DNA from: Sphingobacterium psychroaquaticum
GTDB taxonomy: Bacteria > Bacteroidota > Bacteroidia > Sphingobacteriales > Sphingobacteriaceae
Assembly (NCBI RefSeq): GCF_900177625.1
Contig: NZ_FXAU01000001.1
Coordinates: forward strand, 984,644-1,048,643
DNA length: 64,000 nucleotides
Direction: 5' to 3'
The notes under the pieces were generated by a model. It was not told the DNA's origin, did no database searches, and saw only the letters and a list, made by a program, of their open reading frames with translations. Positions 24,918-34,917 of this stretch are shown piece after piece. Position numbers and translations under genes: made by a program. The number at the start of each line of letters is the position of its first letter. Position 1 is the first letter of the stretch.

Positions 24918-26168
24918 TTATTCCGCTGTTTCAATCAATGCTGCTGCGACAGTTAGATTTGTACGTGGGTCAATCAATATGGCTCTCGCATTTTCCGGAA
25001 AATCTGAACTTAGATCAAAGACAACATCATTTGCTGCGCGCACGCTGATTCTCGCAATATCATTCAAATGTACTTGTGTGTCATTAAAAATCTTCTCTTG
25101 TGTATTTACATCGTATTTGTACGCGATGTCAGCAATTTTAACCTTTGTTGTGGCGGTATGGTTTTGCAGTAAATAAACTTGTGAATCGTCAAGAGATCTG
25201 GTATCAAACCAACAAATATTGGCGCTAAAACCTCGTGAGGCATGCGGTTGGTTATTTACGGAGGTTATAATATCTCCGCGTGATACGTCTACATCGTCTG
25301 CCAAGTGTAAGATAATAGATTGACCATTTTCTGCCTGTAACAGGTTTTCTTGATTAAGCTCAATGGCCTTGATGGAAGTACGGGTGCCGCTTGGTAAAAT
25401 GACGACCTCTTCCCCTACCTGCAACCCCGCTCCGATTACGCGGCCAGCGTAACCACGGTAGTCGTGTAGTGCATCGGTTTGTGGTCGCACAACCCATTGT
25501 ACCGGAAAGCGCCAGGAAGCGGTCTCTTGTTGCTCTTCGATCACTATATTTTCCAAATATGTAAGTAGTGACGGTCCCTTGTGCCAAGATAAATGCGCTG
25601 ATTCATGGACGATATTGTCACCACGCAAAGCCGATACAGGGATAAAATCGACGTCGGATAGCGCTAAACGTCCCGCGAGTGCTGTATAATCCTTTTTAAT
25701 GTTCTCATAGACCGATTCGTCATAATCAACCATATCCATTTTATTGATACAGACCAATACCTTTTTTATTGACAATAGTTTTGCTAGAAAGGAATGTCGT
25801 TTTGTTTGCTCGATAACACCTTTTCGTGCGTCAATTAAGATGATGATTAGGTCCGAATTTGAGGCGCCTGTAACCATGTTTCGGGTGTACTGAATATGTC
25901 CGGGTGCATCGGCAATAATAAACTTGCGATTTTCTGTCTGGAAATATTTATAAGCCACATCAATGGTTATCCCTTGCTCACGCTCTGCTTTTAATCCATC
26001 TGTTAAAATCGCTAGATCCACTGTGCCATCGTTATTTTTTCGGTTGGCATTTTTGATCGCTTCTAGCTGATCGTCCAAAATAGAATTTGTATCGTATAAT
26101 AGGCGTCCAATCAATGTACTTTTACCATCGTCGACGGATCCTGCCGTAATAAATTTCAGAATGTTCAT
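24918..26168 (-). CDS. cysN: sulfate adenylyltransferase, GTPase subunit
   Basis: With CysD it makes adenosine 5'-phosphosulfate (APS) from ATP and sulfate, driven by GTP. The 416 residues have the EF-Tu-like GTPase motifs: SVDDGKSTLIGRL (P-loop), DAPGHIQYTRNM, and NKMD, followed by two beta-barrel domains. There is no C-terminal APS kinase domain, so the pathway here does not obviously go on to PAPS. Last gene of the sir-cobA-met8-cysH-cysD-cysN operon; 14 bases after cysD. Confidence 0.96.
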   Translation of the reverse strand: MNILKFITAGSVDDGKSTLIGRLLYDTNSILDDQLEAIKNANRKNNDGTVDLAILTDGLKAEREQGITIDVAYKYFQTENRKFIIADAPGHIQYTRNMVTGASNSDLIIILIDARKGVIEQTKRHSFLAKLLSIKKVLVCINKMDMVDYDESVYENIKKDYTALAGRLALSDVDFIPVSALRGDNIVHESAHLSWHKGPSLLTYLENIVIEEQQETASWRFPVQWVVRPQTDALHDYRGYAGRVIGAGLQVGEEVVILPSGTRTSIKAIELNQENLLQAENGQSIILHLADDVDVSRGDIITSVNNQPHASRGFSANICWFDTRSLDDSQVYLLQNHTATTKVKIADIAYKYDVNTQEKIFNDTQVHLNDIARISVRAANDVVFDLSSDFPENARAILIDPRTNLTVAAALIETAE

Positions 26169-26182
26169 GTTTCCTCCTGTAA

Positions 26183-27073
26183 TTAGAAATACCCTTGTTT
26201 TTTGCGTTCCTCCATGGCTGCTTCTGAGACTTTATCGTCTAGCCTTGCTCCGCGTTCACTCACGGTAGACGCCTTTATTTCAGCGATAATATCGTCTAAT
26301 TCTGTTGCTACGGAATCTACAGAGGCAGTACAGGTCATATCCCCTACTGTTCGGAATCGTACGGATTTGTGGTCTACAATATCCTCTTCGTCAATCTGTA
26401 AGAATGGCGCGGTAGCCATCCATTGCCCGTTACGTAGCACAACCTCACGCTCATGACTAAAGTAAATGGAAGGAAGTGCAATCTTCTCGCGTTTAATATA
26501 ATTCCAGACATCTAATTCTGTCCAGTTGGAAATCGGAAATACACGTACATTCTCTCCTTTATGGATCTTTCCATTCAAGATATTCCATAATTCTGGTCTT
26601 TGGCGTTTGGGATCCCATTGACCAAATTCGTCACGCACCGAAAAAATACGTTCTTTGGCGCGCGCTTTTTCTTCATCGCGTCGCGCACCGCCAATACAGG
26701 CATCAAACCCATACTGTGTAATAGTATCTAAAAGAGTGGTTGTTTGCAACGCATTGCGGCTTGCGTTTTTCCCCCGTTGTTCGACCACTTTACCTTGGTC
26801 TATACTGTCTTGTACATAACCTACGATCAGCTTCTCGCCTATTTGTTCAACCAACCAGTCCCGAAAGACGATTGTTTCTGGGAAGTTATGCCCGGTGTCA
26901 ATATGTACGAGTGGAAAAGGAAATTTTCCAGGACGAAATGCTTTTAGTGCCAGATGCACTAATGTTATTGAATCTTTCCCGCCGGAAAATAACAAAGCGG
27001 GATGCTCAAACTGCGCGGCTACTTCACGCAAGATGTATATAGCTTCAGCTTCTAAATGATCTAAGTAATCCAT
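26183..27073 (-). CDS. cysD: sulfate adenylyltransferase, catalytic subunit
   Basis: ATP sulfurylase small subunit of the PP-loop family, partner of CysN. From ATG 27073 it has 296 residues, the family length, with FSGGKDSITLVHLALKAF (PP-loop), HIDTGHNFPET and the conserved GGARRDEEKARAKER segment. A frame from 27115 adds 14 basic residues and is rejected because MDYLDHLEAEAIYILRE is the usual start. Lies 14 bases after cysH and 14 bases before cysN. Confidence 0.96.
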   Translation of the reverse strand: MDYLDHLEAEAIYILREVAAQFEHPALLFSGGKDSITLVHLALKAFRPGKFPFPLVHIDTGHNFPETIVFRDWLVEQIGEKLIVGYVQDSIDQGKVVEQRGKNASRNALQTTTLLDTITQYGFDACIGGARRDEEKARAKERIFSVRDEFGQWDPKRQRPELWNILNGKIHKGENVRVFPISNWTELDVWNYIKREKIALPSIYFSHEREVVLRNGQWMATAPFLQIDEEDIVDHKSVRFRTVGDMTCTASVDSVATELDDIIAEIKASTVSERGARLDDKVSEAAMEERKKQGYF

Positions 27074-27087
27074 TCTCTCTCTTCTTC

Positions 27088-27789
27088 TTATTTCTGTACG
27101 ATATGTAAACCACACTCTTTTTTACTTTTGTCCTCCCACCACCAACGACCGGCACGAAAATCCTCGTCGGGTTGTATCGCACGTGTACACGGCTGGCACC
27201 CGATGCTCGGGAAACCTCTATCGTGCAAGGGATTGTAGGGAACATTATTTGTTTGGAGGAAATCCTCCACATCGCTTTGACTCCAATGAAACAGCGGATG
27301 TATTTTTATTATTTTATTACCTTCATCCCATTCCACCATATTCATGTCCTCACGATTTGCCGATTGGGCCGCCCGAATGCCTGTGATCCAGATCTCATAA
27401 CCGCGAACAGCACGTTGAAGGGGTTCTATTTTTCGGATAAAACAACACTCCTTCCGATTTTCTACCGATTCATAGAAACTCGAAGGTCCTTTTGTTGTCA
27501 CCATTTTCTCTACGGCTTCTGTATTTGGGTAGTAGGCCTTGATCGGTAGATTGTATCGCTCCAGTGTTCTATTCCACACATAATAGGTTTCAGGAAACAA
27601 TCGTCCCGTCTCTAGTGTAAAAAGATGTGCGCGACTGCCGATTTCACCTAATAGATGGGTGATTACTTGATCCTCGATGCCAAAAGAAGTCGAGAACACA
27701 GCACGGTCACCGTAATGTGTGTCGACATATTGTAAAATGTCTAGCGCTGTTAAATTTTCAATAGCTTGCTCTATCTCCGTTATTATCAT
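27088..27789 (-). CDS. cysH: assimilatory APS reductase
   Basis: Reduces activated sulfate to sulfite using thioredoxin-like donors. The 233 residues include the PP-loop-like FSTSFGIEDQ, the catalytic C-terminal ECGLH (Cys226), and the extra cysteine pairs Cys115-Cys116 (ECCFIRK) and Cys198/Cys201 (GCQPC). The CC...CxxC set binds a 4Fe-4S cluster and marks enzymes that act on APS directly rather than PAPS. This agrees with the absence of an APS kinase in the cluster. Its ATG overlaps the met8 stop by 4 bases. Confidence 0.94.
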   Translation of the reverse strand: MIITEIEQAIENLTALDILQYVDTHYGDRAVFSTSFGIEDQVITHLLGEIGSRAHLFTLETGRLFPETYYVWNRTLERYNLPIKAYYPNTEAVEKMVTTKGPSSFYESVENRKECCFIRKIEPLQRAVRGYEIWITGIRAAQSANREDMNMVEWDEGNKIIKIHPLFHWSQSDVEDFLQTNNVPYNPLHDRGFPSIGCQPCTRAIQPDEDFRAGRWWWEDKSKKECGLHIVQK

Positions 27790-28367
27790 ATAGCCCCCCT
27801 TCCCAATATGTCTTCTGTATGCTTATTCAATACCTGAACTTTGTGTTGAAAATCACCCTTTAGCTGGTTTCTGTATTGAGACATCAACTGCAATGTCTCA
27901 TCGATCTCTTCGGGAAGTAAGTCTTGGAGAAACTCCTTGAGACGCTTCGCTATGGTTGGTGATTTACCGTTGGTAGAGATGCCTATTTTCAGGTTGCCTT
28001 TTTGAACCACCGAGCCCAGGTAAAAATCGCATAAAGCAGGCTTATCTGCGACATTGAGTAAAATGTGGTGATGCTGTGCCAATGTTTGAATCTGACTGTT
28101 GAGCACCTCATTATTCGTAGCTAGAATAATAAGATCTTTCCCAAGAATATCACAGGGGTCGAAAGGTCGTTCCGAAATACGAATGTTCAATTTCCCTTTT
28201 ATAAAAGTGCGCAAAGTTTTTGTAAGCGCGGTAGCCACGATGTGAACTTTCGCTTCAGGTGAATTGGTATAAATAGCTGTTAATTTTTCCAATGCAACAG
28301 GTCCACCTCCCACTAACAGAGTTTCTATTTGGGCCATTTTTACATATATGGGGAAAAGCTCATTCAT
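27786..28367 (-). CDS. precorrin-2 dehydrogenase / sirohydrochlorin ferrochelatase
   Basis: Met8/CysG N-terminal type enzyme completing siroheme: NAD-dependent oxidation of precorrin-2, then iron insertion. The 193 residues have the nucleotide-binding GGGPVALEKLTAI, the LIILATNNEVLN motif, NVADKPALCDFYLGS, and ISTNGKSPTIAKRLKEFL, all typical. It lies between cobA and cysH with 4-base overlaps at both ends, so it is translationally coupled and supplies the cofactor of the sulfite reductase encoded first in the operon. Confidence 0.92.
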   Translation of the reverse strand: MNELFPIYVKMAQIETLLVGGGPVALEKLTAIYTNSPEAKVHIVATALTKTLRTFIKGKLNIRISERPFDPCDILGKDLIILATNNEVLNSQIQTLAQHHHILLNVADKPALCDFYLGSVVQKGNLKIGISTNGKSPTIAKRLKEFLQDLLPEEIDETLQLMSQYRNQLKGDFQHKVQVLNKHTEDILGRGAI

Positions 28368-29131
28368 GACAATATAGTTCTAGCTAATTCTTCTTTTATC
28401 CGATTGAAGTCCTGGTGTTTAGCGACTACCTCTCCTAAAACGATGATTGCGGGTACGCCGATCCGTCGTTCTGCGGCAGCTTCTAGTATAGTGTCTATAT
28501 GACCTAATGCTATTTTCTCGTTAGATAGCGATCCATTCTGTATCAATGCAATAGGTAAGTCTCCACGACCATGTGCTTGATACAGGGCGACTATTTCTGC
28601 GAGCTTAGCGTAGCCCATCAGCACCACGACGGTGGCATTGGTTTGTACGGCCGTACGTAGGTCTTCCGATAGATGGCCGTCTGACGTAGCGCCCGTGATT
28701 ACCCAAAAACTTTCGCTTATACCGCGATACGTAAGCGGGATCTGCTGTAATCCCGTCAGTCCTACAGAGGATGATATGCCTGGAATAGCAGCTGTCGGAA
28801 TATTGTATTGGCGCGCAAAATCAATTTCTTCACCGCCACGTCCAAAAACAAAGGGATCTCCACCTTTTAGCCGGACAACATGCCCATGTGTCAGGGCATA
28901 ATCTACCATTAACTGATTGATATAGTCTTGTGATGTGGATAGCCGCTCGGCACGCTTTCCAACGTAAATTTTCGTACAATTCGGTTTTGCGTGCTCCAAG
29001 AGGATCTCATTTACCAGAGCGTCATATAGGATTACATCAGCTTCTTTAATGGCATTGAGTCCTTTCATGGTGATTAGGTCAGGGTCACCTGGCCCTGCGC
29101 CAACTAATGTTATGAATGGTTTGATTTCCAT
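28364..29131 (-). CDS. cobA: uroporphyrinogen-III C-methyltransferase
   Basis: Makes precorrin-2 from uroporphyrinogen III with two SAM methylations, the first step to siroheme. The 255 residues show VGAGPGDPDLITMKG, the YVGKRA motif, VRLKGGDPFVFGRGGEE and the GISS-V-GLTGLQQIPLTYRG segment, all family signatures. It starts 20 bases after the sulfite reductase stop and overlaps the next gene by ATGA. A role in cobalamin synthesis is not supported by the neighbours. Confidence 0.95.
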   Translation of the reverse strand: MEIKPFITLVGAGPGDPDLITMKGLNAIKEADVILYDALVNEILLEHAKPNCTKIYVGKRAERLSTSQDYINQLMVDYALTHGHVVRLKGGDPFVFGRGGEEIDFARQYNIPTAAIPGISSSVGLTGLQQIPLTYRGISESFWVITGATSDGHLSEDLRTAVQTNATVVVLMGYAKLAEIVALYQAHGRGDLPIALIQNGSLSNEKIALGHIDTILEAAAERRIGVPAIIVLGEVVAKHQDFNRIKEELARTILS

Positions 29132-29151: not shown

Positions 29152-31248
29152 TTAGACTTTTAGGGAATCTCTGCGTTCGGCTCCTTCATAGTAGAAAGCG
29201 GTTGCCTGTATGAGGTAGGCTTTCGCAAATTCCGGTGACGGACTGTATTTATTGATTTGAAGCACACGTTCTGAAAATGAAGTTGGAAACGAAAATGTCC
29301 CATCCGCTGTATAGTGATTATCAAACTCTGTAATCACACCCTGCTGTGTGCTTGCGTTAATGCCTTTATCTAGTAGTAAAGCTTTAGCTGTCCATACAAA
29401 TGCGCTGTAGGCGTGGTATATAGCGTCCGCATATTGCTCCTTTTCCAGTGCCTTTTTTGCCCATTCGATCTTTTCTTCTACTTCAAAAAGTAAGGTGGCA
29501 ACCAAATCGATAACGACCCCGGCACATTCACCAACACCGATCGCTGTCGCAAATGTTTCTTGATGCCCCCAATCGATATATTCATCTTCGGTGAGTGTGG
29601 TTAAGTCGGACAAGGGTTTTAGTAAACGATAAAAATAATCCTTGGTCTGCCGATCGTAATAGGCATGGAAATCTTCCTGTTCTGTTTTGTAAGCTTTGTA
29701 ATCCGTTAAGATTAGGTCTACGACCTGCAGTACGCGCTTAGTTGGTACCTTAATAACACGTTCCGCGACTCTTCCTTCCCCATCACCAATGGTACCGCCC
29801 CCCAGCATCACTTGTGCGGCCGGAAGCACTTTGCCATTCGCTTTAACTGAACTACCATGAAAGCCGATATGTGCCAGACCATGTTGACCACAAGAGTTCA
29901 TGCAGCCCGAAATCTTGATCTTCAAATTTTGTTCGTAAATGAAGTCGGTATGAAATTCCTGGATATAACGCTCCAATACGCGGGCCATTTCGGTCGAGTT
30001 GGAGATCCCAAGGTTACAGGTGTCTGTTCCTGGGCATGTTGTGACATCCGAAGTGCTTTCAAAACCGGGGGATGCCAGATCGAGCTCTGTTAATAAGTTA
30101 AATATATGTGGCAACGATTCTTCCCGGACAAACTTTAGAAGAAGTCCTTGGTTTTGTGTGATACGGATATCATCCGCCACATGCCCCTTTAGCCCACTGA
30201 CCAGCACACGTGCCTTTGCGGTACTGATATCGCCAGTTAATACTTTTACATAGACGCCAAAGTAAGCTGCCTGCTTTTGTTTGAAAACATTTGTCGCCCG
30301 CCAAATCTCATAGTTGATATTGTTGATGGGTTCTTCCGCAACGACCGCAGATTGAGGCGGTTCGGGCAATACGACGGCGTTGGTATCGACTGGATACGTT
30401 TTTACTTTATTTGCAATGGCTTCGGCTGCGATAAGACGTTGAACTTCTTCAATCCCTAGTTTTCCGATAAGATATTTAAACCGGGCTTTGTTTCTATTAT
30501 TGCGCTCGCCATGACGATCAAAGACACGAAGTGTAGATTCGATGTATGGAATAAGCTCATCTTCGGGCAAGAAGTCATGTACAGGATAAGCAAGAAATGG
30601 CTGTGAACCAAGTCCGCCACCCAGTAAAACCTTGAAACCCCGCTGGGGCTGGCCATCTGTAATTCTTACTTTAGGAATAAAACCAAGGTCATGGATATAA
30701 GAAAAAGCGGTATCGCGTTCGCTGGATGAAAAAGACATCTTGAACTTTCTACCCATTTCAGCACAAACGGGGTTACGTAAAAAGTAAGAGAAAGTAGCGT
30801 GCGCATACGGTGATACATCAAAGGGCTCTTCCGGGTCTATCCCGGCCGTAGCAGAGGCTGTGACATTCCGTACGGTATTTCCACAAGCCTCCCGCAAAGT
30901 AATATCATCCTGTGCTAATTTTGCCCATAGCTCTGGGGTTTTATCTAAGCTTACATAATGTATCTGTATATCTTGGCGTGTAGTTAAATGTAAGTTCTTG
31001 CTCGCGTACTCGTCGGAAATGTCCGCAATACGCAGCAACTGCTTAAAGGTAACTTTACCAAAAGGAAGCTTGATACGCACCATTTGAACCCCGGGTTGAC
31101 GTTGTCCATATACCCCACGGGCTAAGCGCAATGAACGGAATTTTTCGTCCGTAATTTGACCTGCCTGAAAGGCCTTTATCTTCTTTTCTAGCTCAATAAT
31201 TTCCTGTTCTACCACAGGATTTTCTAATTCAGTGCGAAAGCTTTGCAT
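29152..31248 (-). CDS. siroheme sulfite reductase with C-terminal HEPN-like domain
   Basis: Six-electron reduction of sulfite to sulfide. From ATG 31248 the 698-residue protein has the nitrite/sulfite reductase ferredoxin-like half domains, with siroheme and 4Fe-4S cysteines at 405, 411, 449 and 453 (CPGTDTC and CMNSC). The last ~115 residues (about 580-695) are not part of the reductase: AIYHAYSAFVWTAKALLLDKG and TQQGVITEFDNHY match the HEPN helix bundle. No Rx4-6H motif is evident there. No flavoprotein CysJ is nearby, suggesting ferredoxin as donor. A TTG at 31272 is a weaker start. First gene of the operon, so sulfite rather than nitrite is the likely substrate. Confidence 0.9.
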   Translation of the reverse strand: MQSFRTELENPVVEQEIIELEKKIKAFQAGQITDEKFRSLRLARGVYGQRQPGVQMVRIKLPFGKVTFKQLLRIADISDEYASKNLHLTTRQDIQIHYVSLDKTPELWAKLAQDDITLREACGNTVRNVTASATAGIDPEEPFDVSPYAHATFSYFLRNPVCAEMGRKFKMSFSSSERDTAFSYIHDLGFIPKVRITDGQPQRGFKVLLGGGLGSQPFLAYPVHDFLPEDELIPYIESTLRVFDRHGERNNRNKARFKYLIGKLGIEEVQRLIAAEAIANKVKTYPVDTNAVVLPEPPQSAVVAEEPINNINYEIWRATNVFKQKQAAYFGVYVKVLTGDISTAKARVLVSGLKGHVADDIRITQNQGLLLKFVREESLPHIFNLLTELDLASPGFESTSDVTTCPGTDTCNLGISNSTEMARVLERYIQEFHTDFIYEQNLKIKISGCMNSCGQHGLAHIGFHGSSVKANGKVLPAAQVMLGGGTIGDGEGRVAERVIKVPTKRVLQVVDLILTDYKAYKTEQEDFHAYYDRQTKDYFYRLLKPLSDLTTLTEDEYIDWGHQETFATAIGVGECAGVVIDLVATLLFEVEEKIEWAKKALEKEQYADAIYHAYSAFVWTAKALLLDKGINASTQQGVITEFDNHYTADGTFSFPTSFSERVLQINKYSPSPEFAKAYLIQATAFYYEGAERRDSLKV

Positions 31249-31419: not shown

Positions 31420-32391
31420 GTGAAGAGATTTAAATTATTTACATACAGCTGTTTGTGTATTTCCACTTTACTTTCTTGTGCGCCTAAAGTAAAAGAAGGG
31501 TACGATGAGAAGACCGGATATTCGGGCAATATTTCTATTTCAGGAGCCTTTGCTTTGTACCCTATTGTTGTGCTTTGGAGTGAGGATTTTAAAAAAATAC
31601 ATCCCAATGTGCGCTTCAATATTTCAGCAGGTGGTGCGGGAAAAGGAATTACAGATGTGTTGACCAATATGGTCGATATTGGATTGGTCTCCCGGGATCT
31701 GCATCCACAAGAAGTGGCAAAGGGTGCATGGCCTATCCATGTGGCGAAGGATGCTGTTCTGGGTACCGTAAATAGTAATCATCCCAATATTTCGCTTATA
31801 AAGACACGTGGATTTACACAAAAGGAATTAGCGGATCTGTTTGTTTATAAAAAATATAAATCATGGCGCGATATAGATAGTCGTTTTGTCGATGAACCTA
31901 TTGAGGTGTATGTGCGATCGGATGCCGCCGGTGCGGCAGAGACTTGGGCGAAGTACTTTGGAGAACGACAGGAGGATTTGAAAGGTATTGGAATTTTTGG
32001 GGACCCGGGATTAGCACAAGCTATAAAGGAAAAAAAACTCAGCATAGGCTTTAACAACATCAACTATGTGTATGATTTGAAAACAAAGATGCCGACAACA
32101 AATTTAGCGGTGATTCCGATTGATCAGAATGCGGACGGCAAGATTGATAAGTCGGAAGCTTTTTATGGGCATCTGGACCAACTAACTGAGGCTGTAGCTT
32201 TAGGGAATTATCCAGCACCGCCTGCACGTGACTTGACTTTTGTGATACGGAAAGACAAACAGACGAAGTTGTTACAGGCATTTATTCGCTTCGTTTTGGA
32301 GAAAGAACAACAAGGCTATTTACTGGAAAATGGGTATGTACCGCTTTCGGAATCGCTAATACATATAGAATTAAAAAAATTAGATCAGTGA
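31420..32391 (+). CDS. PstS-like oxyanion-binding lipoprotein
   Basis: Periplasmic binding protein of an ABC importer. A GTG start gives a 323-residue lipoprotein with lipobox LLSC (Cys20). It aligns with PstS: SGAFALYP (41-48), SAGGAGKG (69-76), DIGLVSRDL and VRSDAAGAAETW (165-176). In phosphate PstS the first loop has Ser-Thr and the last reads RSDGSGTT; here these contact positions are Ala-Phe and Ala-Ala-Gly-Ala-Ala. With the sulfate-reduction operon divergent 171 bases away, the ligand may be sulfate or another anion. The family assignment is sure; the ligand is inference. Confidence 0.85.
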   Translation: MKRFKLFTYSCLCISTLLSCAPKVKEGYDEKTGYSGNISISGAFALYPIVVLWSEDFKKIHPNVRFNISAGGAGKGITDVLTNMVDIGLVSRDLHPQEVAKGAWPIHVAKDAVLGTVNSNHPNISLIKTRGFTQKELADLFVYKKYKSWRDIDSRFVDEPIEVYVRSDAAGAAETWAKYFGERQEDLKGIGIFGDPGLAQAIKEKKLSIGFNNINYVYDLKTKMPTTNLAVIPIDQNADGKIDKSEAFYGHLDQLTEAVALGNYPAPPARDLTFVIRKDKQTKLLQAFIRFVLEKEQQGYLLENGYVPLSESLIHIELKKLDQ

Positions 32392-33278
32392 ACTGGAGAC
32401 TTTTAAAAGATAAGATTGCGCGTTTTTCGTCGATTACTTTGTTGGTGCTTGCGCTGGCTGTAATTGTGGCTATTGTAGCTGGCTTGGTCGGTAAATCGAC
32501 ACCGCTCTTGCAAGCTGAGTCCTTAGTCGATATTTTATCGGATAGCGTGTGGTCCCCCATGAAAGGACGATTTGGTTTCCTTTCTTTCATTCTGGGTACC
32601 GTGTGGGTCACGCTGATCGCACTGATTGTGGCGACACCCCTTTGTGTATTAGCGTCTATTTATCTCGTTGAATATGCGAGTGATCGATTACGGAACATGG
32701 TGCTCCCGCTTGTCAATGTACTGGCTGCTATTCCGCCCGTATTATATGGTGTCTGGGGTGTGCTCTTTGTTGTTCCGCTTTTGGGAAATTATATAGCACC
32801 ATTTCTAGGTATAGACAGCAGTGGGTTCTCTGTATTTGCAGGTGGATTGGTGTTGGCTGTTATGATTTTTCCGATTATGGTAAGTATCATGGTGGAAGTC
32901 TTATCGACCATTCCAAAGGAGCTGAAGGACGCATCTCTTTCGCTCGGGGCCACGCAATGGGAAACCATCACTAAGGTGGTCTTACAAAAAGCTAAGCCCG
33001 GCCTTATAGCAGCGGCTGTTCTTGGTATTTCGCGTGCCTTTGGCGAGACGGTGGCTGTATTGATGGTGTGTGGAAATATTCCGCAGATACCAAAATCGCT
33101 CTTTGATGCCGGATATCCCCTTCCAGCTTTGATCGCCAATAACTTTGGCGAGATGATGTCTATTCCGCTGTATGACTCCGCATTGATGTTTGCCGCCCTA
33201 CTACTGTTTGTCATCATCTTTGGGTTTAACCTATTATCACGTATCATTTTAAACAGATTGGAGGAGAAAGCCGCATGA
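32388..33278 (+). CDS. PstC-like ABC importer permease
   Basis: A 296-residue inner-membrane protein with about six hydrophobic segments and the PstC-type cytoplasmic EAA loop (KELKDASLSLGATQWETITKV), which docks the ATPase. It starts with GTG inside the stop of the binding-protein gene (4-base overlap) and overlaps the next permease by ATGA, so the four genes form one operon. It works as a heterodimer with the PstA-like protein. Confidence 0.88.
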   Translation: MNWRLLKDKIARFSSITLLVLALAVIVAIVAGLVGKSTPLLQAESLVDILSDSVWSPMKGRFGFLSFILGTVWVTLIALIVATPLCVLASIYLVEYASDRLRNMVLPLVNVLAAIPPVLYGVWGVLFVVPLLGNYIAPFLGIDSSGFSVFAGGLVLAVMIFPIMVSIMVEVLSTIPKELKDASLSLGATQWETITKVVLQKAKPGLIAAAVLGISRAFGETVAVLMVCGNIPQIPKSLFDAGYPLPALIANNFGEMMSIPLYDSALMFAALLLFVIIFGFNLLSRIILNRLEEKAA

Positions 33279-34129
33279 CACATATCCAAAAGAGACTCCT
33301 TAGAGAGCGTCTGGCAAAATACGCCATGCAAGGTTCAGGTATTATCATAACCGGATCTTTATTTTTTATTGTAGGTACAATTCTCTACAAAGGGCTTCCC
33401 TATCTGAACTGGCAGATGGTTTCCGAAAGTCCGAAGGGAGGTTTCTATATTGGAAAAGAAGGAGGAATCTTAAATGCGATTCTGGGTTCTTTATATCTAG
33501 CCTCTTTATCGACGGCACTAGCCACCTTAATTGGTATACCAATCGCTATCTATCTCGATGTTTATGCGAAAAGTGGATCATTTTTGGTACGCACGTGTAA
33601 GTTGCTTTTCGATGTGTTATTTGGGATCCCTTCTATTGTATACGGCGCTATAGCATTTAGTATTATGGTGTGGTTGGGTATCCGGGCTTCTCTTTTAGGC
33701 GGGGTTATCACCATTACACTTTTGACGATTCCTATTGTTGTCCGAACGATCGATGAGCTTCTAAAAACCATACCAATAGACCTGAAGCATGTCACCTTCT
33801 CCTTGGGGACCACACGTTGGGAGACGGCACGTATGATGCTGCGTTATATTCGTCCAGGCATCTTCACTGCAATTTTACTGGCCTTCGGCCGTGCTATTGG
33901 TGATGTTGCTGGGGTGTTGCTTACAACAGGGTTTAGTGACAATTTACCCCAATATCTGGACGAACCTGCAGCCACTTTGCCCCTGGCTATTTTCTTTCAA
34001 CTAAGTAGTCCTATTCCTGAAGTACAGGGGCGTGCATACGCTTCTGCCTTGGTTTTAACTTTTATCATTTTATTCATTGTTATATGTACCCACATCCTAG
34101 CATCAAAACAGAAGAAACACAAAATTTAG
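33275..34129 (+). CDS. PstA-like ABC importer permease
   Basis: A 284-residue membrane protein, second permease of the importer, with six hydrophobic segments and an EAA-like loop (DLKHVTFSLGTTRWETARMML). The segment YGAIAFSIMVWLGIRAS is typical of PstA. It overlaps its upstream partner by 4 bases, and its last 46 bases overlap the start of the ATPase gene. Confidence 0.88.
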   Translation: MTHIQKRLLRERLAKYAMQGSGIIITGSLFFIVGTILYKGLPYLNWQMVSESPKGGFYIGKEGGILNAILGSLYLASLSTALATLIGIPIAIYLDVYAKSGSFLVRTCKLLFDVLFGIPSIVYGAIAFSIMVWLGIRASLLGGVITITLLTIPIVVRTIDELLKTIPIDLKHVTFSLGTTRWETARMMLRYIRPGIFTAILLAFGRAIGDVAGVLLTTGFSDNLPQYLDEPAATLPLAIFFQLSSPIPEVQGRAYASALVLTFIILFIVICTHILASKQKKHKI

Positions 34130-34917
34130 CGGCGCTAAATTCTGCAGGTGTTGTGCCGGTCGCAACCCCACATATAGAGATAAAAGATTTGAATGTTTTT
34201 ATTGAAGGAAATCATATCCTGAAAAATATAAACCTTTCGATTCCAAATAATTCGGTGACTTCTATTATCGGTCCTTCTGGATGTGGTAAAACGACGCTCC
34301 TTAAGACATTGAATCGCCTGGTGGATGACAATAAGGGTGTCACTGTAAAAGGTTCTGTTTTGGTAAATGGAGAGGATATCTACGCTCCGGGAGCGGAAGT
34401 GACACATATCCGTAAAAAAATGGGCCTATTGTCCCAAAAACCATTTCCTTTACCGATGTCGATCTTTGATAACGTAGCCTACGGTCCACGCATTCATGGG
34501 GAACGAAATAAAACAGTATTACGGGGGATCGTTGAAACGCAGTTGCGAAATGTTGGTCTTTGGGATGAGGTTAAAGATCGATTGGAAAGTTCCGCAACAC
34601 GCCTTTCTATCGGACAACAACAGCGGTTGTGCTTAGCGCGCGGTTTAGCGGTCAAGCCAGAGATTATTCTGGGTGATGAATCCACATCGGCGCTGGATCC
34701 AATATCTACACAAACTATTGAAAATCTATTGATTGATCTGAAATCTGATTATACGATCATACTTGTAACGCATATCCTCAGACAGGCACGACGGGTCTCC
34801 GATTATATCATTTTTGTCTACAATGGCGAAATTGTAGAGTTCGGAAAGACAGAGGATGTGCTTTTAAACCCGAAGAATGAGATTACGCAACAGTATGTAA
34901 AAGGATTTATTAGTTAG
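34084..34917 (+). CDS. PstB-like ABC importer ATPase
   Basis: A 277-residue ATPase energising the importer. Walker A is GPSGCGKTTLLKTLNRL and the Q-loop is LLSQKPFPLP. The signature reads LSIGQQQR where PstB normally has LSGGQQQR, and Walker B reads LGDESTSALDP where DEPTSALDP is usual; the catalytic Glu is kept. The annotated ATG at 34084 overlaps the permease by 46 bases and gives about 25 unstructured residues before the ABC core, so a later start is possible. No phoU gene follows, unlike most pst operons. Confidence 0.88.
   Translation: MYPHPSIKTEETQNLAALNSAGVVPVATPHIEIKDLNVFIEGNHILKNINLSIPNNSVTSIIGPSGCGKTTLLKTLNRLVDDNKGVTVKGSVLVNGEDIYAPGAEVTHIRKKMGLLSQKPFPLPMSIFDNVAYGPRIHGERNKTVLRGIVETQLRNVGLWDEVKDRLESSATRLSIGQQQRLCLARGLAVKPEIILGDESTSALDPISTQTIENLLIDLKSDYTIILVTHILRQARRVSDYIIFVYNGEIVEFGKTEDVLLNPKNEITQQYVKGFIS

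Follow-up and report, generated by a model that had tools for sequence, protein, structure and literature searches.

A probable assimilatory sulfite reductase carrying a C-terminal HEPN domain in Sphingobacterium psychroaquaticum and other Bacteroidota

A survey of HEPN domains published in 2013 lists, in its Table 1, a HEPN-T family designated Cpin_6617, which lacks the Rx4-6H motif, occurs in Bacteroidetes and Nitrospirae and, under the listed accession gi 381187024, is described as having 'fusions to a dyad of ferredoxin domains' (PMC3710099). The table entry gives no sulfite reductase name, no context and no residue analysis (PMC3710099). Among openly licensed papers, none was found on the function of a Cpin_6617-type fusion, and none relevant was found on HEPN together with sulfite or nitrite reductase, siroheme or sulfate adenylyltransferase. 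The closest solved relative of the HEPN tail described below is AF0298 (2hsb), a UPF0332/HEPN-T protein; AF0298-like proteins stand alone. On the reductase side, M. tuberculosis NirA (1zj8) is a ferredoxin-type sulfite reductase. CysIJ, the NADPH sulfite reductase, catalyzes the same reaction and likewise contains a siroheme/4Fe-4S hemoprotein, but it requires CysJ. A plasmid-encoded nitrite/sulfite reductase of Thermus oshimai (WP_015065284.1) has a core 38% identical to the one analyzed here, a GECAV terminus and a locus that also adjoins sulfate-assimilation and siroheme genes, but it has no HEPN tail.

The window examined was a stretch of 64,000 nucleotides from the genome of Sphingobacterium psychroaquaticum. 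An ORF of 698 codons occupies positions 29152-31248 of the window on the minus strand, a strand that the earlier note on this DNA had not given, and its product could be aligned end to end with homologues. The reductase core, from about residue 15 to residue 540 (29629-31206, minus strand), matched the Pfam families NIR_SIR_ferr (E 2.5e-30) and NIR_SIR (E 6.9e-44), in two stretches each. The four Fe-S/siroheme cysteines noticed earlier are present as a C-x5-C pair (C405 and C411) and a C-x3-C pair (C449 and C453; 29890-30036, minus strand), and are invariant in all 121 aligned homologues. These domain pairs and ligands are those of the siroheme nitrite/sulfite reductase superfamily. The predicted structure of the core shares its fold with NirA 1zj8 over 475 residues (Z 36.5, about 24% identity), while the best CysI chain scored lower (Z 30.9). 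The protein reached 222 bits against the NirA model PRK09567, below the curated cut-off of 523, and 107.6 bits against the CysI model TIGR02041, for which the cut-off is 756.55. The core is NirA-like without being a member of the PRK09567 equivalog, and it falls outside CysI. The closest named relatives mostly belong to Sphingobacterium species, at 72-79% identity. Y47 (31108-31110) and C122 (30883-30885, both minus strand) are also invariant in the alignment, and may match the Cys-Tyr pair of M. tuberculosis NirA.

The alignment with NirA 1zj8 stops at residue 540, and solved NirA, plant nitrite/sulfite reductase and CysI chains in general extend only to about residue 519-546. Beyond the core lies a segment of about 120 residues (579-697; 29158-29514, minus strand), which the earlier note had read as a HEPN helix bundle; profile, profile-to-structure and predicted-fold evidence all agree with that reading. 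PF05168 was matched at 25.3 bits with the whole protein and at 28.5 bits with the tail alone, above the cut-off of 22, and 58 of 63 homologous tails matched it individually, so that a chance run of helices is not the explanation. When a profile of the tails was compared with solved structures, 2hsb was found with an E value of 2.5e-7, and two more HEPN chains with values of about 4e-6. The AlphaFold model of the tail has five helices at a mean pLDDT of 93, and HEPN entries headed the Foldseek list. VIA-align superposed the model on 2hsb with Z 15.2 over 118 residues, as against Z 7-9 for unrelated helical bundles; in the full-length model the HEPN match, at residues 579-697, had Z 15.8. All of these models are cofactor-free monomers. 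The alternative that the tail is a known reductase subdomain of other topology, named in the earlier note as the outcome that would overturn its reading, was excluded by the match to HEPN chains. The tail is a true HEPN domain and belongs to the PF05168/UPF0332 (HEPN-T) type; its fold is predicted, and structures of relatives have been solved.

Residues at the sites of HEPN catalysis were compared between 58 tails and 17 stand-alone HEPN-T proteins found with the same tail profile. The site of the catalytic Arg...Asp-Tyr motif corresponds to residues 664-671 of the fusion protein, QINKYSPS (29236-29259, minus strand), and has the consensus QINKNEPS/T across the tail family. The motif Arg, present in 16 of the 17 stand-alone proteins, is mostly Asn or Lys in the tails; the Asp and Tyr, found in all 17, are replaced by Pro in 55/58 and by Ser or Thr in 54/58 tails, respectively. 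The Arg of helix 2 (16/17 stand-alone) is mostly His in the tails. The His of the alternative site (16/17) has become Gln in 40 tails, including that of the window, and is retained in 10 of the 58. Thus the nearest stand-alone relatives of the tail, of the same kind as AF0298, keep the His, the Arg and the Asp-Tyr that the tail has lost. The earlier note was right that Rx4-6H is missing; the Arg, Asp and Tyr positions have gone as well and the alternative His mostly so, and neither Rx4-6H nor the alternative His/Arg site that marks HEPN RNase toxins is found in the window's protein. Because the RNase and AMPylation residues are replaced across the tails, the domain is almost certainly catalytically inactive, judging from these columns. 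Other residues are held firmly: D581, Y614, A621, K622, F642 and F674 are fixed in 58/58 tails, and K593, Y611 and P670 nearly so. Y614 and F642 are common to stand-alone HEPN proteins, but most of the other fixed residues are specific to the tails. The tails are acidic, with a median net charge of -8 and a median pI of 4.7.

The Cpin_6617 family, as tabulated, fits this protein in three respects: it too lacks Rx4-6H, is found in Bacteroidetes and is fused to a ferredoxin dyad, which fits because siroheme reductases hold two ferredoxin-like NIR_SIR_ferr half domains. The table entry very probably refers to the present fusion, and for that reason the novelty of the fusion is probably modest, being of a kind already listed (PMC3710099). 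The earlier note had found a HEPN domain in sulfur metabolism surprising; the association is real and somewhat surprising, but it is a trait of a whole family of proteins that was probably tabulated in 2013 (PMC3710099).

Core and tail meet at a junction motif, G-V-G-E-C-A-G (residues 571-577; 29518-29538, minus strand), that was identified from the alignment of homologues. The 121 homologues, whether they carry the tail or lack it, all share its GECA portion (residues 573-576), which includes a cysteine, C575, that is separate from the cluster ligands. The tail-less enzymes terminate one residue past this sequence, as GECAV or GECAA. Since GECA is also found where the tail is missing, the junction cysteine belongs to the core, and the HEPN domain has been joined onto the end of the core. 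In the cofactor-free full-length model, internal positions with pLDDT below 50 occur only at residues 571-580 and at 121-125, the latter including the invariant C122. Our guess would be that GECA lies near the active site.

To ask how widely the tail is found, as the earlier note had proposed, 395 genomes drawn from the phylum Bacteroidota were searched with the tail profile. Strong matches, of at least 104 bits, were found in 57 of them, one per genome and each within a reductase ORF of 694-811 residues; the tails in these 57 genomes were always fused. No copy of this tail standing on its own was found in the 395 genomes, the best non-fused matches (about 45 bits or less) being ordinary small HEPN proteins. 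Carriers include Sphingobacterium, Mucilaginibacter, Pontibacter, Chitinophaga, Siphonobacter, Emticicia, Tenacibaculum, Polaribacter, Echinicola and Algoriphagus. In Persicobacteraceae, the fusion is plasmid-borne together with cobA and sirC (L127 and L193, on Aureibacter and Persicobacter plasmids), and public annotation calls these plasmid fusions only nitrite or nitrite/sulfite reductase. The survey revealed no tail-less close match, apart from a gene in G200 that is cut by the end of its contig, and no loss of the tail inside the main clade. Relatives further off, at 33-38% identity, have tails that diverge (L111-L113, L115 and L116); for the most remote tails (L115 and L180), sequence gives weak support for homology to those of the main clade, with E values of 0.01-0.2 at a nominal database size. 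The same core without a tail was found in four genomes of genus g72 (L114 and L170-L172) and in Thermus oshimai (L126), from which it follows that the tail is dispensable for catalysis in some lineages. A tree of the cores requires two changes and fits a single gain with later losses as well as other orders of events; the tail-less forms could represent losses or the state before fusion.

Between closely related pairs, dN/dS was 0.02-0.22 for the tail and 0.01-0.08 for the core, with the tail higher in all scorable pairs; the second half of the tail, its last 60 residues, is the most variable part. The tail evolves faster than the core, yet is under clear purifying selection. An origin as chance helices or as an assembly artefact was ruled out by this selection and by retention in 57 genomes. 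The fusion is a real, long-conserved trait of a large part of the Bacteroidota, and no local oddity.

The fusion gene is the first of a run of genes on the same strand: cobA, for uroporphyrinogen-III C-methyltransferase (TP_methylase; 28364-29131); sirC, for precorrin-2 dehydrogenase/ferrochelatase (Sirohm_synth_M; 27786-28367); a cysH-like APS/PAPS reductase gene (PAPS_reduct; 27088-27789); cysD, for sulfate adenylyltransferase subunit 2 (PAPS_reduct, and its position beside cysN; 26183-27115); and cysN, for the GTPase subunit of that enzyme (GTP_EFTU; 24918-26168), all on the minus strand. When loci were compared, cobA followed the fusion gene in most, making it a near-universal neighbor, and sirC and cysHDN were usually nearby. 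As the gene adjoins those for sulfate assimilation and siroheme synthesis, its substrate is probably sulfite. The CysH-like protein contains CC...CxxC cysteines (ECCFIRK, GCQPC, KKECGLH), like iron-sulfur APS reductases, and the cobA-to-cysN run contains no cysC kinase gene. On the other side, 171 bases from the reductase start, are divergent genes of the phosphate-transport type, for a PstS-like binding protein, two permeases and an ATPase (31420-34917, plus strand); PstS/PstC neighbors recurred in 23 of the examined loci. No minimal nucleotidyltransferase, as in MNT-HEPN pairs, lies beside the fusion gene, whose neighbors are the cobA-cysN run and the Pst-type operon, and no riboswitch or other RNA family was detected near the operon at the gathering threshold.

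No CysJ match was found in the S. psychroaquaticum genome. CysJ is missing from 55 of the 57 fusion genomes and present in 20 of 23 genomes with another siroheme reductase, a contrast that is inflated by shared ancestry and comes from genome lists hand-compiled from tables. The tailed NirA-type reductase and CysIJ look like alternatives in Bacteroidota, with both found only in G182 and G219. That the tail causes the absence of CysJ was ruled out: the pattern tracks the type of core, and G039, with a tail-less enzyme, also has no CysJ.

The explanation we favor, with a probability of roughly one half for the whole, is that of a HEPN-fused NirA-like sulfite reductase whose inactive HEPN domain is kept as a structural contact module. 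The gene product would be the host's assimilatory sulfite reductase, supplying the sulfide from which cysteine is made, and a single-chain siroheme enzyme probably fed with electrons by ferredoxin or flavodoxin. A HEPN domain of the HEPN-T type would have been joined to an ancestral GECA C-terminus early in the evolution of the Bacteroidota, would then have shed the residues for RNase and AMPylation activity, and would have been retained for its structure, most likely for a protein-protein contact by which it dimerizes the reductase or docks a partner; it might also keep a flexible GECA arm near the active site. A contact role is preferred because the fold and several tail-specific residues persist, the catalytic and basic ones have disappeared, and the tails are acidic. 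The tail would then be a domesticated HEPN domain, presumably structural or partner-binding, and it may be the regulatory or assembly module suggested in the earlier note. A specific form of this contact role would have the tail serve as a dock for ferredoxin or flavodoxin as electron donor, or for a neighboring enzyme of the pathway, for instance CysH, assisting electron delivery or the channelling of sulfite. Genomes without CysJ need another donor and the gene keeps its place beside the siroheme and sulfate-assimilation genes, but the absence of CysJ follows the NirA-type core, even in the tail-less case of G039. Moreover, ferredoxins are acidic and would be repelled by acidic tails, and we consider this specific form unlikely.

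An allosteric role, in which the tail senses a nucleotide or sulfur nucleotide (such as APS, PAPS, ATP or GTP) and thereby modulates the reductase, is suggested by the HEPN domain of sacsin, which binds GTP at about 0.8 uM in a pocket of positive charge on the surface of its dimer (PMC4569058), by the use of HEPN domains for substrate binding in nucleotidyltransferases, among them kanamycin nucleotidyltransferase (1kny, Z 9.2 with the tail), by an operon that both makes and consumes APS, and by the conserved set of tail-specific residues. Basic residues conserved in stand-alone HEPN proteins have nevertheless been replaced in the tails, whose acidity is unlike the positive pocket of sacsin; the binding of APS or NTPs, raised in the earlier note, is disfavored on these grounds (PMC4569058), and a sensor of this kind seems quite improbable. 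We give still less weight to a passive relic of the fusion, retained only since its loss destabilizes the protein. The variable last 60 residues, the raised dN/dS of the tail and the existence of tail-less relatives would suit such a relic, which is nonetheless hard to reconcile with dN/dS values far below 1, with columns fixed in every tail and with a main clade in which no loss was seen. HEPN domains often cut or bind RNA (PMC3710099), and the tail might moonlight in RNA binding, or keep some RNase activity, and so tie sulfur status to RNA. With the canonical site replaced throughout, the alternative His left in only the 10 tails mentioned above, acidic tails, and surrounding genes that include neither a toxin-antitoxin nor a nucleotidyltransferase partner, this appears very unlikely. 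A bolder reading would have a former RNase-toxin domain fixed in the primary sulfur metabolism of much of the Bacteroidota, where it controls a redox-active GECA cysteine arm that is active in sulfite reduction. The analogy is with DsrC, whose C-terminal cysteine serves dissimilatory sulfite reductase, and we regard this idea as a long shot.

A type of domain familiar chiefly from conflict and RNA systems has here lost its catalytic residues and become locked into a housekeeping enzyme across a large bacterial lineage. Public annotation misses the HEPN domain, the fused proteins being called 'nitrite reductase' or 'nitrite/sulfite reductase'. The tail-less natural relatives, together with the invariant junction cysteine, offer a ready comparison for the role of both parts.
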